A stretch of DNA of 64,000 nucleotides, taken from positions 496,001-560,000 of the forward strand of contig CANXME010002307.1 of assembly GCA_948144175.1 (NCBI GenBank), written 5' to 3'. The translations under genes were made by a program, and so were the position numbers. The notes beneath the pieces were generated by a model. That model worked only from the letters and a program-made list of their open reading frames with translations, was not told where the DNA came from and made no database searches. Origin of the DNA: Closterium sp. NIES-65. Its lineage: Eukaryota; Streptophyta; Zygnematophyceae; Desmidiales; Closteriaceae. Below are positions 4,003 to 46,347 of this stretch, piece after piece. Every line of letters begins with the position of its first letter. Position 1 is the first letter of the stretch.

Positions 4003-4188
4003 CTTGCATCTTCTATATTTGCTATATCCTTGCATGTGGACTGGCCTTGTGGCCCCTCGCTTGTTCTCGGACTGTGTGGTGATCTTGAGATCCACCCCGA
4101 GATTTGTTGTGTTTTTTGCGAACTGGTCCTGTGACCCTTGCTGTGTGTTGCTTTCCACAGGACTACCGTCACCTAGACTATGGGGGTG

Positions 4189-4325
4189 TGTCAAGCAATA
4201 TTTGTTTTAGATTGTTTGTGTTAGTCTAGGTGTACTTTATGTTTTCCTAGGGTTGGGGTTATGCTTGCTATATCTTGCTTGTTTTAACTTTCCTTAGTCA
4301 ACACTTCTAGTTTTGTAGCTTGACA
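4189..4325 (+). repeat. 3' LTR of element 1 (137 bp)
   Basis: It starts TGTCAAGCAATA right after the polypurine tract and ends TTGACA, giving the short terminal inverted repeat TGTCAA/TTGACA. The matching 5' LTR is outside the window. Confidence 0.75.
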
Positions 4326-4480
4326 ATTCCACCCGCCATGGAGGTCTTGGGGCGATCGCCCCTTCCACCCAAATCCGCGCTCTACCGAGTCATCGAGCGC
4401 TTCGCCATCCTCCCATCAGGCATTCTTCCAGAGGTAATTCCGAGTCGAGCGCTTGCCGAACTACACGCAGTGATAGAGAT
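4326..4480. other. Unique DNA between two copia elements
   Basis: These 155 bases resemble neither neighbouring element and hold no recognisable gene. They contain a perfect GGGGCGATCGCCCC palindrome at 4350-4363. This is probably a remnant of the target DNA. Confidence 0.5.
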
Positions 4481-4656
4481 TGTCAGAATGTATTGGCTGT
4501 CTAGCTTGCAGTGGGGTACTCTATAGTGAGTACAGCCCCGTTAGGGTTTGCTATATGTACTCAACTGCCTGCTAGTGAAAACCCTCTTCTTCCATTTCTC
4601 TTTCGTGTACCCTAAACCCTAGCTATGGCTACTAAGTTCTAGCTAGGTTACTGACA
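4481..4656 (+). repeat. 5' LTR of element 2
   Basis: It runs TGTCAG...CTGACA (176 bp) with a perfect terminal inverted repeat. It contains CCCTAAACCCTAGC near 4610-4623, a telo-box-like motif, and is followed by a primer-binding-like TGCTATTAGAGC. Confidence 0.85.
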
Positions 4657-4769
4657 TGCTATTAGAGCGAGTACACTATTGGCTTGTGAGCCCACCTGCT
4701 TCCGCTGCTATCCTGTTTGTCGCGCGCCCCGTGGCGTGCGACGTTTTTTCTTCCCGCCATGCGCTCGAG

Positions 4770-5250
4770 GCGCATGGCGGGTTTCTGCCCGCCGCGCGTT
4801 CGGGGCGCGCGGCGGTTTTCTGCCCGCCGTGCTCCCCGAGGCGCGCGGCGGTTTCCTGCCCGCCGTGCGCCACGGGAGCTTGCGGCAACCGCCGTGCGCC
4901 CCGAGGCGCGCGGCAGTTTTCTGCCCGCCGTGCGCCCCGGGAGCTCGCAGCGGTTTCGTGCTCCGTCCCGCGCGCTCCCCTCCTCCGTCATTCCCCCCAA
5001 GGACCCGCGGGCTCCCCCCGTCGTTCATCGCGGCGCCCTCAGGGACCCGCGCGCTCCCCCCCCCCCCCCCGTCGTCCGTTGTGGCGCCCTTGGGACCCGC
5101 GCGTCGCCCCCCCTCCCGTGGCCCGTCGAGGCTCCCCGGGGGCCCGCGCGTCGCCCCCCCTCCCGTCACCCGTCGTGGCGCCCCGGGGGCCCGCGCGTCG
5201 CCCCCTACCGCCGCCCGTCGAGGCGCCCAAGGGACCAGCGCGCCGCCCCG
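4770..5250 (+). repeat. GC-rich tandem repeats in leader of element 2
   Basis: The first part repeats a roughly 36-bp unit with GCCCGCCGTGCGCC and GGCGCGCGGCGG. The second part (about 4980-5250) repeats a unit of about 45 bp ending in runs of C and containing GGGACCCGCGCG. Long frames on both strands here are translations of the repeat and not genes. Confidence 0.75.
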
Positions 5251-5772
5251 CTTCCGCTCACCCACTACCCCATCTCCTGCCTGCGTTTCTGCCCTGTGCT
5301 ACATGCGTTTGGGGTGTGTGGGTGGCGAGTGTGTGACCGTCCCCTGCTCCTCCTCCTCCTTCGTCTCCCACTGCTGCAGCTGCCGCTGAGGGGGTTGGGT
5401 GTGTGGGAGCCGAGGGAGTGGTGCTAGGGGGGTGACATGGGAGTGGAGCTAGGGGTGCAGCAAGGGGTGTGTGAAAGGAGGGTGGGACAGTCGGGGGAGG
5501 TTGAGCGGAGGTAGTCGTCGTGTCGCCAGCAGCGCTAGTAGTCCGAAGGCTACAATCTCCGGTAGTCGCCCGTGGGTCAATTGCTCCATCCGCTCGGTGT
5601 AGCCGCGGAGCCAGATACTCCTGCAGTCCGGGCCATTGCTTCGGTAGCCACTGAGCCAGCCGCTCTTATGTGTCTACAGCTTCTGCCGTCGTGTCCCATC
5701 TCCTCTCCTCTCACAGTCAATCCTCCTCCTCACTTGCCCTTTGTAAATGCCTCTAGCTATGCTTGTACTTGT

Positions 5773-5795
5773 GAACCCTAAACCCTAAACCCTAG
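5773..5795 (+). repeat. Short telomere-type repeat (CCCTAAA)
   Basis: About three units of the plant-type telomere sequence CCCTAAA lie in the interior of element 2. The tract is too short to be a telomere and marks no chromosome end. Confidence 0.8.
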
Positions 5796-6356
5796 CCGCG
5801 CGCGCGCTGTTTGCAGCTGGCCCGCGCAGCCGGCCCCAAGCCCGCGCGACGCGCGCGCAGTTCACAACTGCCCCGCGCAGCCCGCACCGAGCCCGCGCAG
5901 CGCGCGCGCGGCCCGCCGCTGCCCCGCGCAGCCCGCCTAGAGCCCGCGAGGCGCGTCCGCGGCCCGCAGCGCGCTGCGCGCCGTCCGCGCATCCCGCGTC
6001 GCGCTCTGCCCGATAGTGCGCCGCCCTAGGCAGCGGCGCGCGCCACCCCACCGCCGCCACGGCATCGCCCTGCCGCCGACACGGCCCCGCCCTGCCGTTG
6101 ACACGACCCGGCCCCGCCCTGCCGCCGACACGGCCCCGCCCTACCGCTGACTCGACCCGGCCCTACAGCAACTGCCGCGGCCCTGACCTGCCGCTGTCCT
6201 TGCCCCAGCCCTGCAGCTGACGCGGCCCTTCACTATAGCCGCTGTTGCGGCCCCGCCGTCACCGCCGTCGTGCGCCGACCCTGCCGCCGTCCTCCGAGCA
6301 CCGGCCCTGCTTGCCCAGTGAGCGCCTACTCTTCCCGCCACTGGTGAGCACCTGCC

Positions 6357-8618
6357 TTGTTAGCGCGCCGCCGCGCCGCCTGCCTGCCTGCCTGCCGGCC
6401 TGCTTGCCTGCCTTCCGGCCTGCCTCCCTGTCGCGCCTGCCCTGCACGCGCTACCGCTGCTACTACTGCTATTACTACTGCTACTAGCGGTGGCCAGATG
6501 CAGCTCCAGCGACGTACGCGTGAGTCCCTCACGCCCCAGCAGCTTAGTGAGTGGTACGCTAGTTGGGGTTGTAGGGGTGGCCGCGCTGCTACTGCTGCTA
6601 CTGCTGCTACAGCTGTTACTGCTGCTACTGCTGCTACTACTCCTACTGCTTCTACTGGCGGTGGCCAGATGCAGCTCCAGCGACGTCCGCGCGAGTCTTG
6701 CATGCCCCAACAGCTTCGTGAGTGGTACGCTCAGAGTAGAGGGTCTCTCGGTACCGTTCACTTCTGTTACGCCAATCGCACTGGTGCTCGGACTCGTCAG
6801 GCTTGCGGGACGCTTAGTCACACACAGTCCTGCTGCTTCGCACGTCTGAGCGATGCCTGGTGTACCGAGTTTGGCGACGAGGCTGAGCTCCCCGACTGGG
6901 TGGAGCTGCTTGGGCAGAGGGTAGAAATATTTTCTCTTGACTATGATGCTATTCTCACTGCCATGTATGCATTGCCTACTAGTGCTGACCGTGCCTATTA
7001 CCTGTGCGTACCGCCTGACCCAGGTATAGAGCCTGCTGCTCTAGGTGCTGTTGAGGCTGCTACTCTAGGTGCTAGTGCGTCTCCTGCTCTAGGTGCTGGT
7101 GAGGCTGCTACTCCAGGTGCTTGTGAGTCTGCTCTCTCTGGTACTGCGCCTGCTGAGGCCTTGTACACCTTCACACTTGACTCTGGTGCTACTCGCTCCT
7201 TCTTTCGCGGCAGCACCACCCTCACGCCGCCCAGTCGGCCAGTTCTAGTCTCCCTGGCAGACCCCTCTGGGGGTCCACTCCGTGCGACCTCCTCCACTGT
7301 CCTCCATTGTCCTGCTGTCCCGTCCAGCACACTGTCAGGTCTTTACCTCCCCTCGTTCTCTACGAACTTGGTGGCGGGTTCTGCGCTCCAGGATGCGGGT
7401 GTTCACCAGTTCACCCGTGCCTACGAGCGTGTGACCCACTGCACGTGTGCTCAGACGGGTCATCACCTGGCTACCTTCACTCGGCAGCCGGGGTCGGGCC
7501 TGTACACACTGACCACTGAGTCCCCTCAGGTAGCTGCGTCTGCATCTGCGTCAGGTCAGTTGTCGGCCCCCTGCTCGTGTCGCGCCTTGTCGCACCAGAC
7601 CCTCCTTTGGCACCACCGCCTTGGTCACCCCTCGGTGCAGCGCCTTTGCAGCATGCACCGCCGTGTCCTTGTCTCTGGTCTTCCCAGGGTTCTCCCTCCC
7701 CTGCCACCCTCGCCTGCTCCTCCCTGTCTTCCCTGTGTCGAGGGGCGGCAGCGTGCCGCTCCTCACTCCTCCTCGTTCCCTCCCACACAGGCTCTCCTGC
7801 AGACTCTCCACCTGGACGTGTGGGGCCCAGCCCGCGTCCGTGGACAGGGCCACGAGCGGTACTTCCTGCTAGTCATCGACGACTACACGCGTTACACCAC
7901 GGTCTTCCCCTTGCGCACTAAGGGTGAGGTCCCTGATGTTTTGATCCCTTGGAGCCGCGCTGCTTGTCTCCAGCTCCGCGAGCGGTTCGGGATGGAGTTT
8001 CCCGTTCTTCGTCTGCACTCTGACATAGGTGGTGAGTTTTCCTCCGACCTCTTGGCAGCCTTTTGTGAGAAGCACGGCATCACCCAGTCGTTCACGCTTC
8101 CGGCCTCTCCGCAGCAAAATGGGGTTGCTGAGCACCGCATTGGCTTGGTCATGGAGGTCGCTCGTACCTCCATGGTCCATGCGGCTGCCCCCCATTTTCT
8201 GTGGTCGTTTGCGGTCCGGTATGCCGCGCATCAGCTCAACCTCTGGCCCCGTGTCTCCTTGCCGGAGACCTCGCCCACACTGCTGTGGACGGGGAAGGTT
8301 GGCGATGCGTTGCGTTTCCGAGTCAGGGGTTCTTGTGCCTTTGTCCACGATACCAACGAGGACAAGCTCTCCGTTTGCGTTGTTCCCTGTGTCTTCCTTG
8401 GCTTTGTCCCTGACGCGCCTGGTTGGCAGTTTTACCACCCCACCTCGTGCCATGTCTTCCCCTCTCAGGACGTCACGTTCGACGAGTTGGTTCCCTTTTA
8501 CCGTCTCTTCCCCTACCGCACTGCCCCTCTCCCACCTTCGCCGCTCTTCCTCGCTCCAGGTGCTACCCAGGCAGACCCCCTCCTCGCTCTTGGTCCTGCT
8601 CCTTTAGGTGTGTCTTAG
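6357..8618 (+). pseudogene. Copia protease-integrase polyprotein segment (element 2)
   Basis: A 753-codon frame. Its N-terminus is repeat translation and carries two copies of a QLREWY-type motif (near 6540 and 6705). Next come a Cys/His module (FCYANRTG...CGTLSHTQSC, about residues 136-160) and an aspartic protease with TLDSGA (near 7180). Integrase follows: HHRLGHPS and CLPCVEG (zinc-binding HHCC), the first Asp in HLDVWGP (7814), the second in HSDIGGEF (about 8022) and the Glu in VAEHRIG (about 8128). Protease matures the polyprotein and integrase inserts the cDNA. The frame ends at 8618, where related elements continue into the linker. The upstream gag domain is missing. Confidence 0.8.
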
Positions 8619-8621
8619 GTA

Positions 8622-10469
8622 GTCCCTCCTCCCTTGCCTACGTCAGTTGAGGTTACTGGTGACTCAGGTCCTGCTTGGGGTGCTGCTTCTGGGGATGCTG
8701 AGCCTGGGGGTGCTGAGCCGGGGGGTGCTGAGCCTGGGGGTGCGGAGCCTATGGGTGCAGAGCTTGGGGGTGCTGAGCCTGGGGATGCGGAGCTTGGGGG
8801 TGCGGAGCCTGGGGGTGCGGAGCCTGGAGGTGCTGAGCCTGAGTGTGTGGAGTCTGGGGGTGCTGAGCCTGGGGGTACTGGGTCAGGGGGTGCTGCGCTT
8901 TGGGGCACTGAGGAATCTAGTGAGCAGTCTCCCTGGAGCGGCCGTCTCCCCAGTCGCTCCGCTGGTGCCTCGCCGCTGCACTCTAGTCGTCGACCCCCTC
9001 TCTCCCCACAGCAGTTGCGTGAGTGGTACACTGGTCATCAGGGTCGTGCTGCTGGAGCTAGGGGCCCTACTACAGGAGGCGCTGGCGCTGGTGACTCTAC
9101 TACTGGAGTCGTTTCTACTGGAGGTTCTGGAGCTGCTGCGGGTGCTGGCGCTGAGGGTTCTGAGTTTGCTCTTGTGCGGTCTCCTTGGAGTAGCCGCCTT
9201 CGTCCGCGTGTGCCTCTCACCTCAAAGCAGCTGCACGACTGGTACGGTCGCTGTCAGGGTCGCGCTTCTGGAGCTCGGGGCTCTGTCGCTGGAGGTACTT
9301 CTGCTACTGTCACTGGAGCTGGGAGTGGTGTTGGTCCCGAAGGTGGTCGTACTGGAGGTACTGGAGCTGCTGGGGCTGGAGGTGCTGCTTAGCCGGAGGC
9401 TACTACTGCTGGCGACCCTGGAGCTAGGGGTGTTGCTGCTGGAGACACTGAGGCTGGAGACCCTGGGACTGGAGTTGCCGGTTATGGGGGTGCTGCTGCT
9501 GGTGGAGCTGGTCCTGGAGGAGCTAGAGCTGAGGGTTCTGAAGCTGCTTGAGGTACTGGAGCTGCTGGTGCTGGTGACACTGCCCAGCCGCGCCAGTTCT
9601 TTGCTCCGTCGTCTCAGCCACCGCCTGACTCTGTGCTTCGCCAGGTTCTTAGTCTCCCTTCGTCTACTTGTCTTCCGTTACAGCCTGGCTCACCGCTGCC
9701 TGCTCCTTCTCCTTACACTGAGCAGTCAGAGGGTATTATTGAGCGTCCTGAGCCGGCGTCGCGTCCTGTTTTGCCTGTCCGGTCTGGTTGTTCCGGTCGT
9801 AGTGTCTCTCGTTCGCGTCAGCCGGCTGTCACCGGCACTCGCCTTGTCGTCCGTCGTCCTTCCTCTCCTCCGCAACGTGTTAACCTGCCTTCCCCTCCTG
9901 TGTCTTCTCTGCCTACCATCCCTAAGCCTGAGTCTGACCACACCCGTGCTGCTGACTCTACTGTCATGCATGTGCTAGCCACTGTTGTCACTAACCTGTC
10001 GTTTGAGTCTGCTACTGCGTCTGCCTTGGTCGCTGAGCTGGTTGACTTTTCTGCTGCCTATCGTCTAGACTACGCCGCTAGTCTTGTTGCTGAGTCTGAG
10101 TCTGTCTATCCTCTGTCCGTCGAGGGTGAGTGTGCTCTTGGCACGGACGTCCTTGAGGACAGGCAGGAGGACCTTGAGTTTCTTGCAGCCGATGCGCCTC
10201 ATCTCGTGTCCATGCTGCTTGCCCCTGAGGGAGACCCGGATGCTCCAGACATCCCGGCCCCGCGCTCTTACGCTGAGGCGATCGCGGGTGAGTACTCCTC
10301 TCAGTGGCAGACAGCCATGGATGCACAGATGGCATCCTGGAAGTCCACATGCACCTACGTCGACGAGGTTCCCCCTCCCAGGGTGAACATTGTCAGTGGC
10401 ATGTGGATTTTCAGGGTGAAGCGGCCGCCAGGTTCCTCGCTTGTCTTCAAGGCGCGTTACGTTGCTTGA
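8622..10469 (+). pseudogene. Integrase-RT linker and N-terminal RT (element 2), frameshifted
   Basis: Frame 8634-9392 encodes tandem GGAEP pentapeptides (15-bp DNA unit GCTGAGCCTGGGGGT) and two QLREWY-type motifs (near 9005 and 9225). The frame then shifts. Frame 9633-10469 encodes the lead-in to RT with VLEDRQEDLEF, PRSYAEAI and MWIFRVKRPPGS, and ends KARYVA followed by a stop. In the other elements the next residues are RGFSQ and the RT palm; here they are missing, so no active enzyme could be made. Confidence 0.8.
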
Positions 10470-10482
10470 GGGTTCAATCAGG

Positions 10483-10600: not shown

Positions 10601-10670
10601 CCTATACTTCTCACACCTGCTCTGTGATCGCTTGCTCTGCTGATTATACCCCACTTTGACTATGGGGGTG

Positions 10671-16823: not shown

Positions 16824-16959
16824 TGTCAGAATTAGAAACGAGAATGAATGACTAGAATGAGTGTTGGGTACAAATAGGTCAAACCTAACCCTAGAAATGT
16901 GTACCCACTATAGGCTAACCCACTGTAGCCTAAACAAGCACATCATATAATGTTTGACA
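16824..16959 (-). repeat. 3' LTR of the mini-element (136 bp)
   Basis: Read on the minus strand it starts TGTCAAACATT after the polypurine tract. It lacks 16 bp present near the end of the 5' copy. Confidence 0.9.
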
Positions 16960-17185
16960 CACCCCCATAGGCAAAGTGGGGGAGAACAAGGGGTCACAAG
17001 ACCAGTCAAAGCAAAACAAAGCTCAGGGTGGATCTCAAGGATACCACACAAGTTCCGAGCACAAGCAAGCGGTCACAAGACCAGTTCACATGCAGATTTA
17101 TAAAAGAACAAGAGATACAGTAATCACAACCTAGCAAGAGTAAGCATGCAGGTATATATATATAGAGATCACTGTACAAGCAAAG

Positions 17186-17800
17186 TCAAGAAGTGAGCAA
17201 ATGAGGGATAGTAGGCACGAGGCCTAGAAGAGTACAGAAGCGCTGATGGTCACAAGGCTGAAGCGCCTTGGTGAACACGTCAGCAGTGTTGGCCCGAGTG
17301 GCCACGTAACGCAGACAAAGCTGACCTCGCTGCTGCAGCTCTCGAGCAAGAAAGTAGCGCATAGCAATGTGCTTCGTCCTGTGCTCCAGTCTGTGCTCCC
17401 CACACAAGGCAATGGTGGCCTTGTTGTCGACGTACAGCACTGGAGGAGAACGAGGCTGCTCTCCAAGGTCAGTCAGCAGGTAGGTGAGCCAGCGAAGCTC
17501 CTGGGCAGCCATGGCCGTGGCGTAGATCTCAGCCTCACAGCTGGAGCTGAGAACAGAAGAAGAGCGAGTAGAACGCCAAGAGACAGAGCCAGAGCCAAGA
17601 CTGAAGGCGTAACCCTGTGACGACCGCTAAGTAGCCTGGTCGTCTGCCTAGGAAGCGTCTGAGTGCCCAGTGAGAACAGGCCGGTCTCGCCCTCCAAGCA
17701 CTAGCCCCATGCCCGACGTACTGCACAAGTAGCGCAACACCCTCTTAGCTGCATCCATGTGCTCCTTCCGGTGACGGCCGGGAGCGACATAGCGTGCTAA
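17186..17800 (-). pseudogene. RNase H region of the mini-element
   Basis: Starting near 17800 the frame reads LARYVAPGRHRKEHMDAAKRV, the DAS metal-ligand block and, from 17512, MAAQELRWLTYLL, the VDN acidic position and ANTADVFTKAL, ending HLLTS at 17186. Two stops interrupt the upstream part (TAG for Trp near 17650 and TAG for Gln near 17630). No gag, protease, integrase or RT palm is present. Confidence 0.85.
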
Positions 17801-17838
17801 TTTTTTTAATTTTTTTTTGAAAATCCGCTTTGATACCA

Positions 17839-17990
17839 TGTCAGATGATCCACTTGTCAAAATCAGAAACGAGAATGAATGACTAGAATGAGTGTTGGGT
17901 ACAAATAGGTCAAACCTAACCCTAGAAATGTGTACCCACTATAGGCTAACCCACTGTAGCCTAAACAAGCACATCATACAATGTTTGACA
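17839..17990 (-). repeat. 5' LTR of the mini-element (152 bp)
   Basis: On the minus strand it starts TGTCAAACATTG and ends ATCATCTGACA, directly followed by TGGTATCAAAGCGG, a primer-binding site complementary to the 3' end of initiator-Met tRNA type sequence. Confidence 0.9.
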
Positions 17991-18252
17991 ATCATCAGCG
18001 CTTTTGTACGATGCTAGGTCTTGTGCCTACTTGGCCACACTTGCTCACTTCATGACCTTGCTTGTACTGTGATCTTTCTATACCTGCACTTGCTTGTTTA
18101 CCTTTATATATGATCTTGCATGTGAACTGGCCTTGTGGCCTTGCTCTTGTGCTCAGACTGTGTGGTGACGTTGTGATCCACCCTGAGCTTGCTTTGCTTT
18201 GCTTGACTGGTCTTGTGACCTCTTGTTCTCCCCCACTTTGCCTATGGGGGTG

Positions 18253-18378
18253 TGTCAAACTCATATGCAATAGTCTGTGTAGGTTGTAGTGGGGTAGACA
18301 ATATGGGGTACAACACTTTTAGGTTTTCCTACTTGTACCCACCTGCCTGCTAGTTCATTCATTCCTTGTTCTTCCATA
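18253..18378 (+). repeat. LTR at the 3' end of element 3
   Basis: It begins TGTCAAACTC right after the polypurine tract CCTATGGGGGTG. The shared LTR block is present, but overall similarity to the 5' LTR at 10838 is poor. The end is ill-defined because it runs into a minus-strand leader. Confidence 0.7.
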
Positions 18379-25800: not shown

Positions 25801-27165
25801 CGTGGCTTCAGTCAGCGGCAGGGGGTTGACTACTTTCAGACCTTCTCCCCCACCCCGAAGATGACCACTCTTCGGGTTCTGCTGCACGTTGCTGCTCACC
25901 GTGACTACGAGCTGCACTCTCTTGACTTCAGCACTGCTTTCTTGCAGGGCAGCCTGCACGAGGAGATCTGGCTGCGTCGCCCACCTGGCTTCACTGGGTC
26001 TTTCCCTCTTGGTACCCAGTGGAGTCTCCGGCGTCCAGTCTACGGTCTCCGCCAGGCGCCACGTGAGTGGCACGACACACTGAGGACTACGCTCGCGGCA
26101 CTTGGGTTTGCTCCTTCTACTGCAGACCCGTCGCTGTTTCTTCGCACCGACACCTCTCTGCCGCCGTTCTACATCCTCGTGTACGTCGACGACTTGGTCT
26201 TTGCCACAGCTGACACTGCTGGACTCGCCTATGTGAAGTCCGAGCTGCAGAAGAGACACACGTGCACTGACCTGGGTGAACTGCGCAGCTACCTTGGCTT
26301 GCAGATCACCCGGGACAGAGCACGCCGCACCATTACCCTGACTCAGTCACACATGGTGCAGCAGGTCCTTCAGCGCTTCAGCTTCACGTACTCCTCGCCT
26401 CAGGCCACTCCTCTGCCTACTCGCCACTCGCTCTCAGCTCTGCCTTCGGATGAGTCCGTAGAGTCGAGTGGCCCGTTTGCAGAGCTTGTTGGCTGCCTCA
26501 TGTACCTGATGACCTGCACACGACCTGACCTCGCATACCCTCTTAGCATTCTCGCACGCTTTGTTGCTCCTGGGAGACACCGACCAGAGCACATGGCTGC
26601 AGCGAAGAGGGTGTTGCGCTACTTGTGCAGTACATCGGGCATGGGGCTAGTGCTTGGAGGGCGCAGTCCAGTGGTCCTCACTGGGCACGCAGACGCTTCT
26701 TGGGCTGACGACCAGGCTACGCAGCGGTCGTCACAGGGTTACACCTTCAGCCTAGGTTCCGGCTCTGTCTCGTGGCGGGCTACCCGCTCGTCTTCTGTTC
26801 TCGGCTCCAGTTGTGAGGCTGAGATCTACGCTGGGGCTATGGCTGCACAGGAGTTACGCTGGCTCACCTACCTGCTGACCGACCTTGGAGAGCAGCCTCG
26901 TTCTCCTCCAGTCCTGTACGTAGACAACAAGGCCATGCTGGCCTTGTGTCGAGAGCAGCGACTGGAGCACAGAACGAAGCACATTGCTCTCCGCTACTTT
27001 CTTGCTCGTGAGCTACAGCAGCGTGGACAGCTACGACTTGCGTACGTGGCCTCTGAGGCCAACACTGCTGATGTGTTCACCAAGGCACTTGCGCCTTGTG
27101 ATCATCAGCGTTGTTGCACGCAGTTGGGTCTTGTGGCTGTCTTGCCTCACTTGCTCTCCTCTTGA
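22872..27165 (+). pseudogene. Copia pol of element D (protease part to RNase H), one frameshift
   Basis: Frame 22899-24341 starts downstream of the protease DSG site and covers integrase: HHRLGHPS and CVPCVEG, MDVWGP, SDRGGEF and IAERCIG, hence a complete DDE set. An extra base in a C-rich run near 24262 shifts the frame. Frame 24298-27165 then encodes the GGAEP repeat linker, a QELREWF motif (24591), RT with YVDD (26182-26193) and RNase H with DASWADD, CEAEIYAGAMAAQ and VDN, ending HLLSS. It is nearly identical to element E. RT and RNase H look intact, but gag and the start of protease are lost. Confidence 0.85.
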
Positions 27166-27216
27166 CCTTGCTTGTACCTTCGCCTATATTTACTCTTGCT
27201 CTTGCTTGCTTGATTC

Positions 27217-27346
27217 TGTCAGAACATATAGCTTACTTGTTTGTGTAGGCTATAGTGGGGTATCCCATAGGGGTACAACACAATTAGGGTTTCCTATTTG
27301 TACTCACTTCGTTCATACTCATTTCATTCTCGCTCAATTCTTCTCA
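27217..27346 (+). repeat. 5' LTR of element E
   Basis: It runs TGTCAGAACATATAGC...TTCTCA, followed by TGGAATCAGAGC. It belongs to the same family as the LTRs of D and F but has a distinct 3' third. Confidence 0.9.
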
Positions 27347-28240: not shown

Positions 28241-28687
28241 ATGGCCACCCCCAATGTCCTTACTTTTGACGCTGAGGGGAGGGCCATTGACTTTGCCGTC
28301 TGGATTGAAGACCTGCAGCTGTACTTACTATGTGATGCGATAGATGAGGTCTCTCTCTTTGACTTTGTCTCTGGCGCTGTCCCTGCCCCACCTGCTGATG
28401 CTGACTCTGCCGTTCGCTCCAAGTGGGCGACCCGCGATGCTGCTGCACGTCTTGCTGTGCGTCGCCACCTCCCTTCCTCTGAGCGTGCCCACTTTAGTCA
28501 GTGCAAGACCGCTCAGGCCTTGTACGACGCTGTAGTTGCACGCTACTCCTCCCCTTCCTCCGCTACCCTTAGCCGCCTCATGCTACCGTTTCTCTTCCCT
28601 GACCTCGCCTCCTTTCCCACTGTTGCTGACCTCGTTACCCACCTCCGTGCTAGTGACACCCGCTACCCGCGCTGCCCTTCCTGCTGA
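28241..28687 (+). pseudogene. Gag N-terminal domain of element E, frameshifted
   Basis: The ATG at 28241 opens MATPNVLTFDAEGRAIDF, matching the gag starts of elements 3 and F. The segment includes LQLYLLC, RSKWATRDAAARLAVRRHL and FPDLASFPTVADLVTHL. An extra C near 28668 (TACCCGC against TACCGC in the relatives) moves the frame, so it ends RCPSC at 28687. Without that base the frame would join the 1,880-codon frame downstream. Gag builds the particle. Confidence 0.85.
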
Positions 28688-29315
28688 GTTCCGCGCTGCG
28701 AACCCTCCTCCCATGTACATCACTCTCTACTTTCTCGTCACCCGTCTCCCTGAGTCCCTTCGTGCCGTTAGGGACCAGTTTCTCTCTGTCTGTCCCACCA
28801 CTCTCACTGTCGATCTCCTTGAGGAGTCCCTGCTAGCGGCTGAGAAGAGTATTGTCGCTGTAGGGGCCTCTCGGGGTGACCCTCGCACCCCCATCTTTGA
28901 GGGGTGTGGTCCTTCCCCCCTACTGCCCTCTGTCGCCTCTGCCGCTGCGGCCGACCTCACTGGTTTTGAGTCGGTCGGCGCGGCGTCTGCCCCCAGCGGC
29001 AGACGCCGCTCTGGCAAGGGCAAAGGGGGCAAGGGAGCGGGTGGAGCTAGAGGGGGCGGTGGAGGAGGCGGTGGGGGTGGCGGGGGGAGTGGGGGTGGCG
29101 GTGGGGGTGGTGGCGGGAGTGGAGGTACTGGTGGCGGCGGTGGAGGCGGAGGTGGCGGCGGAGGTGGTAGCGGAGGAGGCGGTGGGAGCGGTGGGAGCGA
29201 CGGTCCTGGTGGGGGAGGTGGCGGTGGAGACGGGGGTGGCGGTGGAGGCGGGGGTGGCGGTGGAGGCGGGGGTCGGAGTGGCTCGTCCCAGCGGAGCAGC
29301 TCTGGGGGTGGTCAG

Positions 29316-29346
<31 letters not shown>

Positions 29347-32300
29347 CGCAGCAGCAGCCACAGCAGCAGCAGCGCTCTCGCACCGTCCCCGGCCCTCAGC
29401 AGCTCCGTGAGTGGTACTTGCAGCGTCAGCGTGGTGGTGCGCTTGGTCCCTGCCCCTACGTTCTTCGCACAGGTGACCGTGCAGGGGAGAGGTGTGGAGG
29501 CGCCCACACAGCCCGTCGCTGCTTTGGCCGCCTGACCGACGCCTGGCGTCAGCACTTTCCGGAGGCCGCTGAGATCCCCCGCTGGGGAGAGCTGTCTAGG
29601 GCTGGTGTAGCTATTTATGATCTTGATTTTGATGCTATTCTCTCTGCTATGTATGCTGTGACTGGTAGTGATGAGGATGACTGTTACCGGTGTTTCCCGC
29701 CCGACCCGGGCATTGGTACTGCCGCGTCAGGTACTAGTGAGGCTGCTGCTCTAGGTGCCAGTGCGTCTGTGCTCTCAGGTACTGGTGAGTCTGCCCTCTC
29801 AGGTACTGTGCCGGCTTCGGCCCCTCACACCTTCACCCTTGACTCTGGAGCGTCTCGCTCCTTCTTTAGGGACCGCACCACTCTCACGCCGCTGAGTCGG
29901 CCGGTTGCGGTGTCTCTGGCTGACCCCTCTGGGGGGCCTGTCCTGTCTCGCTTCTCCACTGTCCTCCCGTGTCCGGCGGCCCCCTCTGGCACCCTGACTG
30001 GTCTCTACCTCCCCTCGTTCTCGACGAACTTGGTGAGTGGTGCTGACCTCCAGGATGCGGGTGTCCACCAGTTCACCCCTGCTCGTCAGCGGGTGACCCA
30101 CTGCACGGAGGCGGATACAGGTCGCCACCTGGCTACGTTTACACGTCGGCCAGGGTCGAGCCTCTACACACTGACCACTGCTTCTCCTCCAGGTGCTGAG
30201 TCTGGTAGGGTCCCTTCGTCTGGTCAGGTGTTTGCTGCAGCGTCCAGGTCTGGTCCTGAGTCTGCCCCCTGCTCGTGTCGTCGTCTGTCTCACGAGACCC
30301 TCCTCTGGCACCACCGCCTTGGCCACCCCTCTCTGCTTCGGCTCAGAGGCATGGCCTCGCGAGTCCTTGTGTCTGGTCTTCCCCGGTCTCTCCCTCCCCT
30401 TCCTCCGGGCCCTGGCCCCACCTGTGTCCCCTGTGTCGAGGGGCGCCAGCGTGCTGCCCCTCACTCCTCCCAGTTTCCTCCGACAGAGGCCCCGTTGCAG
30501 ACGCTTCACATGGACGTGTGGGGCCCAGCCCGCGTCCGTGGACAGGGTCAGGAGCGCTACTTCCTTCTGGTGGTTGACGACTACTCGCGTTACACCACAG
30601 TCTTCCCCTTGCGCAGCAAGGGTGAGGTCACTGAGGTGTTGATCGACTGGATCCGCGCAGCTCGTCTCCAGCTTCGGAGGAGCTTTGGCTCTGACTTCCC
30701 TGTTTTACGTCTGCACTCAGACAGAGGCGGAGAGTTCTCCTCTGGCCTCCTGAGTGCCTACTGTCGTGCGCGAGGCATCCGTCAGACCTTCACGCTTCCG
30801 GACTCACCACAGCAGAATGGGATTGCTGAGCGCCGCATTGGCATGGTCATGGATGTCGCTCGTACGTCCATGATGCATGCGGCTGCTCCCCATTTTCTGT
30901 GGCCGTTTGCGGTCAGTTACGCTGCGCACCAGATCAACCTCCACCCCAGGGTCTCTCGACCGGAGACCTCCCCAGCCCTGCTGTGGACCGGGAAGGTTGG
31001 CGATGCGTCGGCGTTCCGGGTCTGGGGATCTCGGGCGTTTGTTCGTGACCTGTCTGCGGACAAGCTGTCCCCTCGTGCTTCTCCCTGCGTCTTCCTGGGG
31101 TTCCCCCCCGACGCCCCTGGGTGGCAGTTTTACCACCCCACCTCTCGACGTGTTCTGTCCTCCCAGGACGTCACGTTCGACGAGTCGGTACCCTACTACC
31201 GCCTCTTCCCCTACCGCACTCCGTCCCTCCCCCCACCCCCGCTCTTCTTGGTACCAGGTCCCCCCCCGGTAGTCCCCCTCCCCCCTCAGGGTCCTGCCCC
31301 TTCAGGTGTGTCCCAGGTAGACGCGGTCGAGCCTGTCGAGGTCACTGGTGACTCTGGTGCTGCTGCGGGAGCTGAGCCTGGGGGTGCGGAGTCTGGGGGT
31401 GCTGAGCCTGGAGGTGCCGAGTCTGGGGGTGCTGAGCCTGGGGGTGCTGTGCCTGGGGGTGCTGAGCCTGGAGGTGCCGAGTCTGGGGGTGCTGTGCCTG
31501 GGGTTGCTGAGCCTGGGGGTGCTGGGCCTGGGGGTGCTGTCTCTAGGGGTGCTGAGCCTGGAGGTGCTGTGCCTGGGGGTGCTTCGTCTCGCCGGGAGCC
31601 ACTCTCCCCACTAGAGCTGCGTGAGTGGTTTGCCAGGCGCTGGAGGCGTGCTGCTGGTGCTGGTGGTTCTTCGGCTGCAGAGGGTACTGCTACCGCGCGT
31701 CCCGCCGGTGCTCGTACTGTGGGTGCTGGAGCTGCTAGGTCTGAGAGTCCTCCTGGAGCTGGTCCTGCTGAGGGTGTTGGCGCTGAGCCTGCCGTTGGCG
31801 GTCCGTCTGACAGTGCTCCTTGTGCTGCGGCTGGAGGTTCTGGAGCTTCTGGTGGTGCTGCTGGAGGTGTTGCTGGAGTTGGTGCTCCTGCCGGGGCTGC
31901 TGGTGCTGTTCCTGCTGTTTCTAGCGTCGCCGCGCGGCCCCGACCGTACTTCGTTCCGCTCCTGCAGCAGGTTCTTGGTCTTACACCTCCTCCTCCTCCC
32001 TTAGAGGGTCCGCAGCCTGTCCGGTCACAGCCACAGCTACAGCCTGCCTCCCCTTTGCCTGCTCCTTCTCCCTACGCTGGTCCGACTGGAGGTCTTACTG
32101 AGCGTCGTGAGCTTGCGTCTCGTCCTGTGTCGCCTGTTCGTACTGAGCGCGCTAGTGGTCGCGGGTCGCGTCAGCGTCCTCCTCCTGTCCCTGGCACGCA
32201 CCGGATGTCACTGCGTCCGTCCACTGCTCCTCTGCGTGCTCCTTTGCCTTCTCCTCCTGCTTCCTCTCTTCCTGCTCTTGCCGACCCGGAGTCGGACTCT

Positions 32301-34178
32301 CTTCGTGCTGCCAGTCCTACTGTCACGCGTCTCCTGGCTACTGCTGTCACTGACCCCTCCTTCGAGTCGTCTGCTGCGTCTGCCCTTGTCACTGAGCTTG
32401 TCGACTTTGCTGCGCGATGTCGTCTAGACTACGCTGCTCGTCTTGTCACTGAGTCTGAGTCCGCCTGTCCTCCGTCCGTCGGGGGTGAGTGTGCCCTTGG
32501 CACGACCGTCCTTGAGGACAGGCAGGAGGAGTTCCAGTGTCTGGCCGCCGCTTCACCTCGTCTCGCGTCTGTACTGCTAGCCCCTGAGGGAGACCCGGAT
32601 GCACCAGACATCCCGACTCCGCGCTCTTACGCGGAGGCGATAGAGGGTCCCTACTCCTCTCAGTGGCAGGCAGCGATGGATGCAGAGATGGCTTCCTGGA
32701 AGTCCACAGGCACCTACGTTGACGCTGTTCCCCTTCCTGGGGCGAACATCGTCAGTGGCATGTGGATTTTCAGGGTGAAGCGGCCGCCTGTCTTCAAGGC
32801 GCGTTACGTGGCTCGTGGCTTCAGTCAGTGGCAGGGGGTTGACTACTTTCAGACCTTCTCCCCCACCCCGAAGATGACCACTCTTCGGGTTCTGCTGCAC
32901 GTTGCTGCTCACCGTGACTACGAGCTGCACTCTCTCGACTTCAGCACAGCTTTCTTGCAGGGCAGCCTGCACGAGGAGATCTGGCTGCGTCGCCCACCTG
33001 GCTTCACTGGGTCTTTCCCTCCTGGTACCCAGTGGAGTCTCCGGCGTCCAGTCTACGGTCTCCGCCAGGCGCCACGTGAGTGGCACGACACACTGAGGAC
33101 TACGCTCGCGGCACTTGGGTTTGCTCCTTCCACTGCCGACCCGTCGCTGTTTCTGCGCACCGACACCTCTCTGCCGCCGTTCTACATCCTCGTGTACGTC
33201 GACGACTTGGTCTTTGCCACAGCTGACACTGCTGGACTCGCCTACGTGAAGTCCGAGCTGCAGAAGAGACACACGTGCACTGACCTGGGTGAACTGCGCA
33301 GCTACCTTGGCTTGCAGATCACCCGGGACAGAGCACGCCGCACCATTACCCTGACTCAGTCACACATGGTGCAGCAGGTCCTTCAGCGCTTCGGCTTCAC
33401 GTACTCCTCGCCTCAGGCCACTCCTCTGTCTACTCGCCACTCGCTCTCAGCTCTGCCTTCGGATGAGTCCGTAGAGTCGAGTGGCCCGTACGCAGAGCTT
33501 GTTGGCTGCCTCATGTACCTGATGACCTGCACACGACCTGACCTCGCATACCCTCTTAGCATTCTCGCACGCTTTGTTGCTCCTGGGAGACACCGACCAG
33601 AGCACATGGCTGCAGCAAAGAGGGTGTTGCGCTACTTGTGCAGTACGTCGGGCATGGGGCTAGTGCTTGGAGGGCGCAGTCCAGTGGTCCTCACTGGGCA
33701 CGCAGACGCTTCTTGGGCTGACGACCAGGCTACTCAGCGGTCGTCACAGGGTTACACCTTCAGCCTTGGTTCCGGCTCTGTCTCGTGGCGGGCTACCCGC
33801 TCGTCTTCTGTTCTCGGCTCCAGTTGTGAGGCTGAGATCTACGCTGGGGCTATGGCTGCACAGGAGTTACGCTGGCTCACCTACCTGCTGACCGACCTTG
33901 GAGAGCAGCCTCGTTCTCCTCCAGTCCTGTACGTAGACAACAAGGCCATGCTGGCCTTGTGTCGAGAGCAGCGACTGGAGCACAGAACGAAGCACATTGC
34001 TCTTCGCTACTTTCTTGCTCGTGAGCTACAGCAGCGTGGACAGCTGCGACTTGCGTACGTGGCCTCTGAGGCCAACACTGCTGATGTCTTCACCAAGGCA
34101 CTTGCGCCTTGTGATCATCAGCGTTGCTGCACGCAGTTGGGTCTTGTGCCTGTCTTGCCTCACTTGCTCTCCTCTTGA
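28669..34178 (+). CDS. Copia gag(C)-protease-integrase-RT-RNase H polyprotein (element E)
   Basis: The frame is open from 28536 to 34178; the useful part starts after the gag frameshift. In order: MYITLYFL (28713), GKGKGGKG and a Gly-rich tract, Gln-rich segment, QLREWY (29399), Cys/His module CPYVLRTG to CFGRL (29451-29530), protease LDSGA (Asp codon 29841), integrase HHRLGHP (30309) and CVPCVEG. The integrase acids are Asp 30513, Asp 30720 and Glu 30828, the last two spaced as in D-x35-E. Then come GGAEP repeats (31376-31580), QLREWF-like (31614), RT with YVDD (33195-33206) and RNase H with DASWADD (33706) and VDN. RT lacks three residues (GSP) before VFKARY that the relatives have. All catalytic residues are present, so it could supply enzymes to defective copies if expressed. 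Confidence 0.88.
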
Positions 34179-34389
34179 CCTTGCTTGTACCTTCGCATAT
34201 ATATACTCTTGCTCTTGCTTGCTTGACTCTTGTATACCTCTATATATGATCTTGCATGTGAACTGGCCTTGTGGCCTTTGAACTTGTGCTCGGAATGCGT
34301 GGTGACTTGTGATCCACCCTGAGCTTTGCTTTGCTTTGCTTGACTGGTCTTGTGACCCCTTGTTCTCCCCCACTTTGCCTATGGGGGTG

Positions 34390-34522
34390 TGTGAGAACAT
34401 ATAGCTTACTTGTTTCTGTAGGCTATAGTGGGGTATCCCATAGGGGGTACAACCCAATTAGGGTTTCCTATTTGTACCCACTTCATTTCATAGTCATCCA
34501 CTCCTGTTCATTCAGTTTCACA
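34390..34522 (+). repeat. 3' LTR closing elements D/E
   Basis: It starts TGTGAGAAC after the polypurine tract CTATGGGGGTG and ends TTTCACA before CACCG. One difference from the 5' LTR of D over 124 aligned bases. Confidence 0.9.
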
Positions 34523-35342: not shown

Positions 35343-35449
35343 TGGTATCAGAGCAGGTCCCATCCTAGGGACTGTTCTTTAGGGCCCACCGAAGCGCGCC
35401 CGAGGCGCGCGCCTTTTTTTTTAGCGACCCTTCGAGTCGCCCTGTTCCT

Positions 35450-36300
35450 ACTCGCGGCCCGGCCGCCGCCCTACCTTAGCGGCCCTCCCGCCGCCCTCGC
35501 TAGCGGCCCCGCCGTCCCGTCGCGGCCCCGCCACCCAGTCGCGGCCCCGCTACCCCTAAGCGCGGCCCCGCCACTCCGTAGCGGCCCCGCCACTTCGTCG
35601 CGGCCCCGCCACTCCGTTGCGGCCCCGCCACTCCGTCGCGGCCCCGCCAACCAGTCGCGGCCCACCCGCCGCCCTACCTGCGGCCTCCCCGCCGCCCTAC
35701 CTGCGACCGTCCGCCGCCCTACCTGCGGCCGTCCCGCCGCCCTACTTGTGGCCTACCCGCCGCCCTAACTGCGACCGTCCGCCGCCCTACCTGCGGCCGT
35801 CCCGCCGCCCTACCTGCGGCCTACACGCCGCCCTACCTGCGGCCGTCCGCCGCCCTACCTGCGGCCGTCCCGCCGCCCTACCTGCAGCCTACCCGCCGCC
35901 CTACCTGCGGTCGTCCGCCGCCCTACCTGCAGCCGTCCCGCCGCCCTACCTGCGGCCTACCCGCCGCCCTACCTGCGGCCCGCCCGGCCGCCCTACCTAC
36001 GCGGCCCAGTAGCAGCCGAGCCGCGCGGAGCAACCGAGCTGCCCAGGAGCCACCGAGCCGCCCAGCAGGAGCCGAGCCGCACAGCAGCAGCCGCGCCCCC
36101 CGTAGCCGCCGAGCCGCACAGCAGCAGCCGCGCCGCCCGTAGCCGCCGAGCCGCCCAGCAGCAGCCGAGCCGCCCAGGAGCCATCGAGCCGCCCAGCAAC
36201 AGCCGAGTCGCCCACCAGCAGCCGAGCCGCCCAGGAGCCGCCGAGCCGCCCAGCAGCAGCCGAGCCGCCCGGGAGCCGAGCCGCCCAGCAACCTAGCGGC
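35450..36300 (+). repeat. GC-rich tandem repeats in leader of element F
   Basis: Three blocks follow each other: GCGGCCCCGCCA-type units (35480-35660), CCGCCCTACCTGCGGCCGTC-type units of about 23-25 bp (35660-36000) and GAGCCGCCCAGCAGCAGCC-type units (36000-36290). A splice-donor-like CCCGGTGAGC lies at 36347. Frames across it are repeat translations. Confidence 0.8.
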
Positions 36301-36416
36301 CGTGTCGTCTGGCGACCTTCCTCCCGAGCCGCCCGACCTGCCCTGCCCGGTGAGCACTGCACTGCTGTCACTGCGTACCCTTCCCCTACTGCTTGCACTG
36401 CGCCACTCTCGTCGTC

Positions 36417-41702: not shown

Positions 41703-41788
41703 CCTTGCTTGTACCTTGACCTATATATACTCTTGCTCTTGCTTGCTTGACTCTTGTATATCTCTATATATGATCTTGCATGTGAACT

Positions 41789-41882
41789 GGCCTTGTGGCC
41801 CTTGACCTTGCGCTCGGAATGTGTGGTGACTTTGTGATCCACCCTGAGCTTTGCTTTGCTTTGCTTGACTGGTCTTGTGACC
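41789..41882 (+). other. Twin TTGT-loop hairpins before the polypurine tract (element F)
   Basis: Two inverted repeats, GGCC-TTGT-GGCC (41789-41800) and GGTC-TTGT-GACC (41871-41882), lie in the 3' untranslated block. The same pair occurs at 34265/34346 (D/E), 18129/18209 (element 3), 46224/46304 (C) and, with CTGT in the second loop, 4043/4125 (element 1). Confidence 0.75.
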
Positions 41883-41914
41883 CCTTGTTCTCCCCCACTT
41901 TGCCTATGGGGGTG

Positions 41915-42046
41915 TGTCAGAACATTATAGCTTACTTATTTGTGTAGGCTATAGTGGGGTATCCCATAGGGGGTACAACTCAATTAGGGTTTCATATTTG
42001 TACTCACTTCATTCATAGTTCATTCATTCACGTTCCTTTCTTCACA
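41915..42046 (+). repeat. 3' LTR of element F
   Basis: Identical to the 5' LTR except for one T/C difference; followed by CCTAT. Confidence 0.93.
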
Positions 42047-45000
42047 CCTATCTTTTCCCCGATCTGGCCGCCTATCCCACAGTCGCTGACCTCATTACAC
42101 ACCTCCGCACTAGTGACACTCGCTACTGAGCCGCCCTTCCTGCTGAGTTCCTCGCCAAGAATCCCCCCCGATGTACCTCGTTCTCTACCACCTAGTCACC
42201 CGTCTCCCTGACTCTCTTCGCGCAGTCAGGGACCACTTTCTCGCCCTCTGCCCCACCGAGCTCACCGTTGACCTGCTCGAGAAGCATCTGCTTGCAGCTG
42301 AGGCTAGCATAGTTGCTGTAGGTGCCTCTCGGCGACCCCCGCATGCCCTTCAGGTACTGCGTCTACTGAGGCACTTCACACCTTCACACTGGACTCAGGT
42401 GCTTCCCGCTGTTTCTTTCGCGATCGCACTACCCTAGCGCAGCTCCCTAGGCCTGTTGCTGTCTCCCTAGCTGACCCCTCCGGGGGTCCAGTCCTTGCGA
42501 CCTCCACCACTGCCCTCCCTTGTCCTGCTGTCCCGTCTGGCACACTGTTGGGTCTTAACCTCCCCTTATTCTCTATGAACTTGGTGGCGGGTTCCGCGCT
42601 CCAGGATGCGGGTGTTCACCAGTTCACCCATGCCTACGAGCGTGTGACACACTGCACGTGTGCCCAGACGGGTCGTCACCTGGCTACCTTCACTCGGCAG
42701 CCGGGGTCGGACTTGTACACACTGACCACTAAGTCCCCTCAGGTAGGTGCGTCTGCGTCAGGTCAGTTGTCCGCCCCCTGCTCGTGTCGCACCCTGTCGC
42801 ACCGGACGGTCCTTTGGCACCACCGCCTTGGTCACTCTTCGATGCAGCGCCTTCGTGACATGCACTCCCGTTTCCTTGTCTCTGGTCTTCCCTGGTCACT
42901 GCCTCCCCTGCCACTGTCCCCTGCCCCTCCCTGCCTTCCCTGTGTCGAGGGGCGGCAGCGTGCCACCACTCACTCCTCTGAGTTTCCCCCGACGGAGTCT
43001 CCTCTGCAGACCCTTCACATGGACGTGTGGGGCCCGGCCCGCGTCCGTGGACAGGGCAGAGAGCGGTACTTCCTGCTGGTAGTTGACGACTACACGCGTT
43101 ACACCACAGTGGAGACTCTGGTCCTGTCAAGGTAGCTGTCCACTCTGGTCCTGCGCGAGGTACTGAGCGTACTGAGCCTGAGAGTGCTGAGCCTGGTGGT
43201 GCTGGGTCTGGGGGTACTGAGACTGGGGGTGCTGAGCCTGGGGGTGCGGAGACTCGGGGTGCTGAGCCTGGGGGTGTGGAGACTGGGGGTGCTGAGCCTG
43301 GGGGTGCGGAGATTGCGGGTGCTGAGCCTGGGGTAACTGTGCCTGGGGGTGCTGAGCCTGGAGGTCCTGAGCCTGGGGGTGCTCCACCTGGGGGCGCTCT
43401 CTCTTCCCAGCAGTTGCGTGAGTGGTACTCCCGGTATTGTTGCCGCCGCCGTGGTGCTGTGGGATCAGGAGGTGCTGCTGGAGCTGGAGCTGAGGTCGCT
43501 GGGCCTACTTGAGTTGGTGTAGCTGTTGACCCTGGGGTTGGTGCTAGAGGTGCTGGAGCCACTGGTCCTGAAGGTGCTCGTACTTGCGGTACTGGAGCTG
43601 CTGGGACTGGAGGTGCTACTGGAGCTGCTGGAGGTGCTACTGGTACTGGGGCTTGTGGTACTGCAGGGGCTGGAGCAGGAGGTGATGACGCTCGTCCTCC
43701 TGCAGGTGCTGGAGCCAACGGTGCGGCTGGAGCTGGTGCTACTAGGGGTACTAGAGTTGGCACTCCTGGCGCTACTAGTGGTGCTGCAGGAGTTGGAGCT
43801 GCTGCTGGGGGTTCTGGTGCTGTCTCTGCTGGTTCTGGGGGCACTTCACGGCCGCGGCCGTACTTCGTTCCGCTCCTTCAGCAGGTTCTTGGTCAGCCGC
43901 CTCCTCCTTGTCCTGCTCCCTCCTTAGAGTGTCCTCCGCATGTCCAGTCGCAGACACAGTTATAGCCTGCCTCGCCACTCCCTGGTCCTTCTCCCTACAC
44001 TGGTCCGACAGGAGGTCTTACAGAGCGTCGTGAGCCTGAGTCTCGTCCTGTGTCGCCTGAGTCTCGTTTTGCGTCACCTGTTCGTGCTGCTCACACAGGT
44101 CGTTGTGTCTCGCGTCAACGTCCTCCTGCTGTCCCAGGCACTCACTAGATGACGCTTCGTCCTTCCACTAATCCACAGCGTGTCCCTCTGCCTTCTCCTC
44201 CTCCATCCTCCCTTCCTGCCCTTGCTGACCCGGAGTCTGACTCTCTTCGTGCTGCTAGTCCTACTGTCAAATGTCTCCTGGCCACTGCTGTCACTGATCC
44301 TTCCTTTGAGTCAGCTGTTGCGTCTGCCTTAGTTGCTGAGCTTGTCGACTTTGCTGCTCATTCTCGTCTAGACTATGCTGCGAGTCTTGTTGCTGAGTCT
44401 GAGTCTGTCTGTCCTTCGTCCGTCGGGGGTGAGTGTGCTCTTGGCACGGACGTCCTCGAGGACAGGCAGGAGGACTTTGAGTGCTTTGCCGCTGCTGTAC
44501 CTCATCTCGTGCACCTGAGGGAGACCCGGATGCACCAGACATCCCGACCCCGCGCTCTTACGCTAAGGCGATCGCGGGTGAGTACTCCTCTTAGTGGCAG
44601 TCAGCTATGGACGCAGAGATGGAATCCAGGAATTCCACTGGCACTTACGTCGAAGAGGTTCCCCCTCCTGGGGCGAACATCGTCAGTGGCATGTAGATTT
44701 TCAGGGTGAAGCGACCGCCACGTTCTCCGCCTGTCTTCAAGGCTCGTTACGTTGCTCAAGGCTTCAGTCAGCGAGAGGGAGTGGACTTCTTCTAGACCTT
44801 CTCCCCCACCCCGAAGATGACCACTCTTCGGGTGCTACTGCACGTTGCCGCTCAGCGTGACTACGAGCTTCACTCTCTTGACTTCAGCACAGCTTTCTTG
44901 CAAGGCAGCTTGCACGAGGAGATCTGGCTGCGCCACCCTCCTGGCTTCACTGGGTCGTTTCCTTCTGGTACCCAGTGGAGACTCCGCTGGCCGGTCTACG

Positions 45001-46347
45001 GACTCCGCCAGGTGCCACGTGAGTGGCACAATGCACTGAAGACTACTCTTGCGGCTCTTGGGTTCGCGCCTTCTACTTCTGACCCGTCGTTGTTTCTGCG
45101 TACCGACACTTCGCTGCCGCCATTCTATATCCTCGTGTACGTCGACGACTTGGTCTTTGCCACTGTTGACACTGAGGCTCTCGCCCTGGTGAAGTCGGAG
45201 CTGCAAAAGAGACACACGTGCACAGACCTGGGTGAACTGCGCAGCTACCTTGGCTTGCAGATCACTCGGGACAGAGGACGCCGCACCATCACACTAACTC
45301 AGTCACACATGGTGTTGCAGGTCCTTCAGCGCTTCGGCTTCACCTAGTCCTCGCCACAGCACACTCCTCTGGCTACAGGTCACTCGCTCTCAGCTCCACC
45401 TTCGAACGAGTCCGTAGAGCCGAGTGGTCCTTACCCAGAGCTAGTTGGCTGCCTCATGTACCTGATGACTTGCACTCGTCCTGACCTCGCGTACCCTCTT
45501 GGCCTTCTGGCTCGCTACGTGGCTCCTGGTCGGCACCGAAAGGTGCACATGGATGCTGCTAAGAGGGTACTACGGTACTTGTGCAGTACATCAGGCATGG
45601 GGCTCGTGCTTGGAGGGAGGAGCTCAGTTTTTCTCAGTGGGCACTCAAACGCTTCTTGGGTTGACGACCAGGCTACTCAGCGGTCGTCACAGGGTTACAC
45701 CTTCAGCCTTGGCTCTAGTTCAGTTTCTTGGCGTTCTACACGTTCGTCTTCAGTTCTCAGCTCCAGTTGTGAGGCTGAGATCTACGCCACAGCCATGGCT
45801 GCACAGGAGTTACGCTGGCTCACCTACCTGTTGACCGACTTGGGAGAGCGGCCTCGTTCTCCTCCAGTGCTGTACGTGGACAACAAGGCTCCCATTGCCT
45901 TGTGTGAGGAGCACAGACTTGAGCACAGAACAAAGCACATCGCTCTGCGTTACTTCCTGGCTCAAGAGTTGCAGCAGCGTGGTCAGGTTCGTCTGCGTTA
46001 CGTGGCCACTCGGGCCAACACTGCTGATATATTCACCAAGGCACTTCAATCTGGTGATCATCAGCGTTTCTGCACTTTGCTAGGGCTTGTGCCCACTTTT
46101 CCTCACTTGCTGTAGGCTTTACTTGTATTGTGATCTATATATATACATATACGTGCATGCTTGCTTTGTTATGTAGCGATCGATGTGATGTTTGTGTTAC
46201 ATATATGCCTCTGCATGTGAACTGGCCTTGTGGCCCTTTTCTTGTGCTCAGTGAGTGTGGTGACGTTGTGATCCAACCTGAGCTTGCTTTGCCTTTCTTG
46301 ACTGGTCTTGTGACCTCTTGTTCTCCCCCACTTTCCCTATGGGGGTG

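Follow-up and report, generated by a model that had tools for sequence, protein, structure and literature searches.

A conserved hairpin-bearing block beside the polypurine tract of Closterium Copia retrotransposons as a candidate cis-acting 3′ domain

What is known of RNA signals that act in cis in Copia elements comes mainly from Ty1 of yeast, itself a Copia-type element, where most of them lie at the 5′ end; Ty3 and Copia represent different superfamilies. Among retroviruses, packaging stem-loops are composed of several small short-loop hairpins gathered in a constrained non-coding block at the 5′ end, and the constitutive transport element is a structured repeated motif of the 3′ untranslated part. 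According to one account, the minimal mobile form of Ty1 needs 380 nt from its 5′ end and 357 nt from its 3′ end, internal genes being removable, and the primer site of Ty3 comprises two segments in the 3′ untranslated region (PMC4974528), while another describes 3′ sequences of Ty3 as required in cis and its polypurine tract as base-paired in RNA (PMC11381356). Here, we analysed a stretch of 64,000 nucleotides from Closterium sp. NIES-65 (contig CANXME010002307.1, positions 496,001 to 560,000; hereafter the window), whose Copia retrotransposons carry twin hairpins just upstream of the polypurine tract and the 3′ long terminal repeat (LTR). These hairpins belong to a cis block that is real, conserved and very abundant in a Copia population of this alga; that they form part of a 3′ domain of this large population which acts in cis, probably at the RNA level, is a reading to which we give about even chances.

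An earlier note on this DNA had placed the hairpins in the 3′ regions of elements designated 1, 3, D/E, F and C and of a minus-strand mini-element, and a motif scan of the window recovered every one of them where it had been reported. The first hairpin (H1, GGCC-TTGT-GGCC; GGCCTTGTGGCC) starts at 4043, 18129, 34265, 41789 and 46224 of the plus strand, and GGTCTTGTGACC at 18209, 34346, 41871 and 46304 of the same strand and at 17071 and 16992 of the minus strand; the second hairpin (H3) of element 1 is GGTCCTGTGACC at 4125, with a CTGT loop. With at most one mismatch allowed, the hairpin motif occurs 16 times in the window vs a mean of 2.25 and a maximum of 7 in 100 shuffles, and GGYCTTGTGRCC gives 57,829 exact matches in the 874-Mb Closterium genome vs 76 for the reversed control pattern. 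Matches to the short motif at 108 loci of viral contigs look like chance, since none of these loci (0/108) combines it with a tract or with a further motif at the proper spacing. A protein-pattern search of viral contigs returned no match and the plasmid collection no similar DNA; the search of genome contigs gave one match, in an Elusimicrobia metagenome-assembled genome. All these collections possibly exclude the window's genome.

In copies sampled across the genome, a single block of ~135 bases takes in the twin hairpins, with GAACT, H1, a variable linker, a further hairpin (H2), a T-rich linker of varying length, H3, GTTC and the polypurine tract following each other from 5′ to 3′. Both H1 and H3 have stems of 4 base pairs, with a loop usually of 4 bases in the former and a TTGT loop in the latter, and H2, which had escaped the earlier note, combines a 6-base-pair outer stem (GCTCRG/CYGAGC) with an inner one (GTGG/CCAC). 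A hairpin at the tract can form by pairing of its 5′ arm CCCCCA with TGGGGG, GAAC/GUUC makes a possible closing stem of the block, and the distance from H3 to the tract equals 21 bases in 38 of 47 copies. Folding of eight single copies gave z-scores from -1.15 to -3.24, six of them below -1.8, and the same H1, H2, H3, GAAC-GUUC closing stem and tract hairpin reappeared in five; in the diverged copies L198, L170 and element 1 the minimum-energy fold retains H1 and not all of the other parts. An Rfam scan of the window produced 0 matches, and the two found for four loci at E up to 1 were both far below the gathering score and outside the block. Copies were mostly found via at least one exact motif: 115 nhmmer matches were reduced to 93 distinct ones and 89 unique cores, of which 29 selected for a C.A mismatch were excluded to give alignment A1 (60 copies); alignment A2 includes deliberately chosen C.A and U.G copies, nine of the 30 loci L110-L139 being used.

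The block looks to be kept by selection, judging from the profile of conservation along 44 copies with flanks, all of which were picked by anchors at both block ends and 24 of which were chosen via the C.A variant. Mean pairwise identity in the block interior (positions 6-99 from H1) is 0.84 vs 0.67 in the 120 bases upstream and 0.61 in the LTR start, the interior exceeding the former in 874 and the latter in 895 of 946 copy pairs. For the pol coding sequence (-460 to -131) the value is 0.86 vs 0.84 for the interior in the 812 pairs with coding aligned, the interior being higher in 287 of them: the non-coding block is about as conserved as pol coding sequence, not more. Comparison between the window's own families reveals the same island, and since loose, diverging flanks are present on both sides in the same copies, recent shared ancestry alone is insufficient to account for it. 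An earlier mean of 0.76 for RNase H was not relied on, being lowered by badly aligned columns and pairs and accompanied by a block window that included the selection anchors.

In small hairpins the block is like retroviral packaging stem-loops, which differ in their 5′ place; with the constitutive transport element it has in common the 3′ place and a repeated motif, sequence and fold being different. No sign of the CYC-type cyclisation of Ty1 or the tRNA-bridge of Ty3 was seen: in Ty1, CYC3 pairs with the 5′ CYC5, whereas here complementarity to the 5′ leader or initiator tRNA did not rise above shuffles in four elements (a crude comparison), a result to be set beside the contrary points gathered below. 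To go by the parts of the two accounts at hand, the likeness to mini-Ty1 consists in 3′ sequences acting in cis with dispensable internal genes (PMC4974528), and that to Ty3 in a tract paired in RNA, as in the tract hairpin here, no twin-hairpin block being mentioned for Ty3 (PMC11381356). Among the papers listed by the literature searches made here, nothing of this multi-hairpin 3′ domain kind appeared for Copia elements. In the element RNA, H1, H2 and H3, perhaps closed by GAAC/GUUC, would stand directly before the tract-holding hairpin; this fold would form in cells and be what selection keeps, and the domain may serve to package the genomic RNA or, during reverse transcription, in priming and strand transfer; most likely it would do so by binding the Gag or reverse transcriptase (RT) of the element itself. 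A cis-acting 3′ domain would explain why the block is retained in a mini-element devoid of most genes. Packaging, dimerisation and priming are each possible roles; the more specific suggestion that a multi-hairpin, cloverleaf-like 3′ domain set against a hairpin-held tract acts in Copia as a combined packaging and plus-strand-priming signal, letting gene-poor mini-elements hitch-hike, is tentative and somewhat doubtful. A 3′ block with tens of thousands of motif matches in a land-plant relative makes a large natural data set, and the mini-element offers itself for helper assays that ask how such elements select their RNA and copy it.

The mini-element had been described as lacking gag, protease, integrase and the RT palm and keeping the block. 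It does retain the block together with a pol fragment of ~0.6 kb from the RNase H side, and, at 1.17 kb in all, it has no space for the remaining domains. Its LTRs of ~135 bases are identical at 134 of 137 positions; short LTRs and a target duplication recall a terminal-repeat retrotransposon in miniature, which has no coding domains, but with ~0.6 kb of pol remaining it is better named a non-autonomous deletion derivative. Its H1 does read GGTC-TTGT-GACC, with both stem positions changed and pairing kept, as had been noticed, and its H3 has the same sequence. The longer relatives L113, L117 and L120, whose identity with the mini-element over ~0.9-1.0 kb is 90, 90 and 88%, share this double change, a point that the earlier note does not have; these three and L146 carry the upstream RT sequence that the mini-element lacks.

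Selection acting on the RNA fold itself is plausible and favoured here, on weak evidence. The H1 stem can pair in 54 of 60 copies, with the TTGT loop intact in 41; a three-base TCT loop is found in 11 of the 60, the stem being paired in 10 of these. One H2 pair reads G.U, A-U or G-C in 96/96 cells of A2 and 56/57 of A1, and H2 underwent double changes in element 1, L221 and L144. Genome-wide, pair 3-10 of the motif is C-G or U-A in 56,957 of the 57,829 matches (by subtraction) and shows U.G in 501 vs C.A in 371 (binomial p 1.2e-5); within the H3 context wobble amounts to ~90 vs ~55 C.A (p 0.0046), all eight C.A and all eight U.G loci fetched being H3. Each single change is the complementary transition of the other, in a matching sequence context, and the wobble excess therefore speaks for pairing.

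A series of observations weighs against the reading of the block as an RNA-level domain, and several of them concern covariation, on which the earlier proposal of selected RNA structure had leaned. The test used was written in R-scape style (G-test with average product correction, substitutions placed randomly on a FastTree tree), and it yielded no pair at E<0.05 for either the 57 distinct rows of A1 or the 98 of A2, the best structural pair having E of ~10 and 31, respectively; its power is low because most A1 stem columns have 0-5 changes. On one tree, double-change cells in A1 number 19 vs 5.6 expected (reached by 14 of 500 simulations), but double-change pairs were 4 vs 2.8 under the null, a value reached by 127 of 500 simulations; with a tree built from unpaired columns both cells and pairs were non-significant (77/500 and 303/500). 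The high share of paired cells relative to the null mainly mirrors the position of the changes on the tree. In A1, a simpler shuffling control that ignores relatedness was surpassed by cells and covariation score, whereas pairs and pair types stayed within it. Stem transitions keeping pairing vs those breaking it were 45 vs 37 in A2 and 32 vs 20 in A1, not significant in either, this count dropping seven named A2 rows, one A1 row and two A2 pairs. In H3, a single confirmed compensated copy (L230) faces ~145 single changes (~90 wobble, ~55 C.A). The U-A form of H1 is limited to one clade of 8 copies of A2 (seven that share one H2 type, plus the deletion derivative L146); as this clade includes longer RT-bearing elements, the form was inherited and stands for one event in the sample. 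This compensated stem change is no proof of selected RNA structure. The wobble counts include related copies, several fetched U.G copies sharing a subfamily, and RNA-level errors could likewise be strand-asymmetric; the TCT-loop copies look like one group and may go back to one event; the H3 loop is as conserved as the H3 stem, and the lower variability of paired relative to unpaired columns is no more than a trend (p 0.10). Finally, H1 and H3 are not needed by every element: motif and block search detected no H1-H3 in the short element 2419-4002, where the tract hairpin is present, and the family L143/L160 (L143:60-182, L160:2804-2926) keeps H2 and the tract hairpin without H1 or H3. What stands of the earlier proposal is the non-coding constraint, the place beside the polypurine tract and the retention in the mini-element, while, judged by the refuting condition that the note itself had set, the covariation argument largely fails.

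Several candidate lines were set aside. The A2 excess of double changes (13 pairs vs 6.1) was inflated by rows misaligned or without the block (L215 and L227 for the changes at the tract hairpin, L143 and L147 for further ones); a Fisher test on stem transitions was biased by base composition; and of four C-G matches in H3 context taken as compensated H3, only L230 proved to be H3, the remaining three, with two identical copies among them, being H1 from other families. Predicted proteins of Closterium strains NIES-53 and NIES-54 read in frame across H1 and H3, H3 giving W-S-C-D in 31/31 and TGLV-T in 52/53 countable matches. Since the pattern demanded D, N or E ahead of W, it passed over P0047, where W-P-C-D marks an uncompensated H3; eight proteins read N-W-P-C-G at H1, a form favoured by query and pattern. 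As a proxy for covariation this read-through was discarded, since it shows conservation in NIES-53/54 and adds no covariation. Some gene models of Closterium (P0010, P0011, P0048 and others) join RNase H to the H3 region, skipping H1/H2 as an intron, and the skipped stretch may be a genuine intron of the 3′ region or an artefact of gene prediction.

The block might be kept as DNA or linear sequence, H1 and H3 being twin palindromic sites bound by a transcription or chromatin factor of the host with an effect on the neighbouring LTR, and the RNA hairpin being incidental. The 12-base motif is indeed a near-palindrome used twice, and the equal conservation of H3 loop and stem, like the lack of significant covariation, fits such sites; but the half-site spacing of H1 is 3 instead of 4 bases in 11 of 60 copies, which is odd for a dimer site, wobble outnumbers mismatch, H2 and the tract hairpin differ from the twin motif, and the block lies outside the LTR, beside the tract; we hold this explanation unlikely. 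Quite unlikely, in our estimate, is a 3′ RNA element for transcript handling (nuclear export of unspliced RNA, stability or 3′-end formation) placed like retroviral export elements and serving neither packaging nor priming. The location just before the 3′ LTR suits it, as do the gene models that skip part of the block region like an intron; however, these are possibly artefacts of prediction, and the 21-base H3-tract distance suggests a link to the tract.

With very low probability, the block is functionless, recent bursts from few founders having spread it and the H1 double change having come by conversion from H3. The U-A form of H1, found in one clade, equals H3 over ~15 bases, and gene conversion over a tract of at most 15 bases is a possible source of the double change; moreover, L182 and L191 combine the GGCC form of H1 with the H2 type of the U-A clade, which suggests exchange between copies. 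Shared ancestry alone as the source of the island is disfavoured, for the flanks of the block diverge strongly on both sides in the same copies.

Closterium is a streptophyte alga, and the best 120 of 8000 scored relatives of the RT region all come from Closterium sp. NIES-53 or NIES-54. Within the window, the open reading frame (ORF) 28536-34175 contains gag_pre-integrs, rve, SH3_retrovirus and RVT_2 in this order, integrase thus preceding RT as in Ty1/Copia. Beside the 5′ LTR, at 35343 and 22443, lies TGGTATCAGAGC, which we take to be a primer site of initiator-tRNA-Met type. The main text of the genome paper on NIES-53/54 contains no mention of "retrotranspos", "LTR" or "copia" (PMC10407611).

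Table 1. Hairpins and whole blocks of the Copia elements in the window (for element D/E, H2 and tract hairpin coordinates are taken from the alignment, this copy not being folded individually)
Feature	Position	Strand	Support
H1, element 1 (GGCC-TTGT-GGCC)	4043..4054	+	motif scan
H3, element 1 (CTGT loop)	4125..4136	+	motif scan
H1-like hairpin GGCC-ATGT-GGCC in a partial repeat of the H1 region	2370..2381	+	
Whole block, element 1 (of the window's full copies, the one with the lowest score)	4035..4189	+	99.3 bits
H2, element 1; T-A as closing pair and G-C at one inner pair vs G-C and G.U in most copies	4065..4102	+	
Non-autonomous mini-element within element 3; target duplication ATCAT (+ strand, both sides)	16824..17990	-	
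Whole block, mini-element	16959..17090	-	143.8 bits
H1, mini-element, U-A form GGTC-TTGT-GACC	17071..17082	-	motif scan
H2, mini-element, GTGGTATCC...GATCCAC type	17021..17060	-	
H3, mini-element	16992..17003	-	motif scan
Whole block, element 3: H1 18129-18140, H2 18151-18188, H3 18209-18220, tract hairpin 18230-18250	18121..18253	+	
Whole block, element D/E: H1 34265-34276, H2 34288-34324, H3 34346-34357, tract hairpin 34367-34387	34257..34390	+	
Whole block, element F: H1 41789-41800, H2 41812-41849, H3 41871-41882, tract hairpin 41892-41912	41781..41915	+	
Whole block, element C: H1 46224-46235, H2 46246-46283, H3 46304-46315, tract hairpin 46325-46345	46216..46348	+	

The H1-like hairpin at 2370 appears to belong to element 1, the 3′ region of which is split by the short element 2419-4002, an insertion with 176-base LTRs 97% identical to each other and a CTTGC target duplication; position 2419 was rejected as an LTR of element 1, being the start of this inserted element. 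The 3′ region of element D (27103-27217) ends at the LTR start at 27217 with no block found beyond; insertion of the next element or a deletion could account for this. Judging from its LTR-like start and end, element C (~22310-46480) seemingly contains D, E and F nested in it, and downstream of the primer site of element F (35589-36019) repeats follow in steps of ~23 bases. LTR starts (e.g., 41915-42040) carry a AGTGGGGT box in 59 of 66 cases with at most one mismatch, the box being complementary to CCCCACT immediately before the tract, and a loose pattern of the inverted repeat GTACA...TGTAC fits 38 of the 66. An ORF of 1309 residues with an RVT_1 reverse transcriptase domain occupies 58581-62510 of the minus strand. 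Outside the window, locus L140 bears two blocks on opposite strands, 972-1103 (+) and 1232-1363 (-), within 400 bases.

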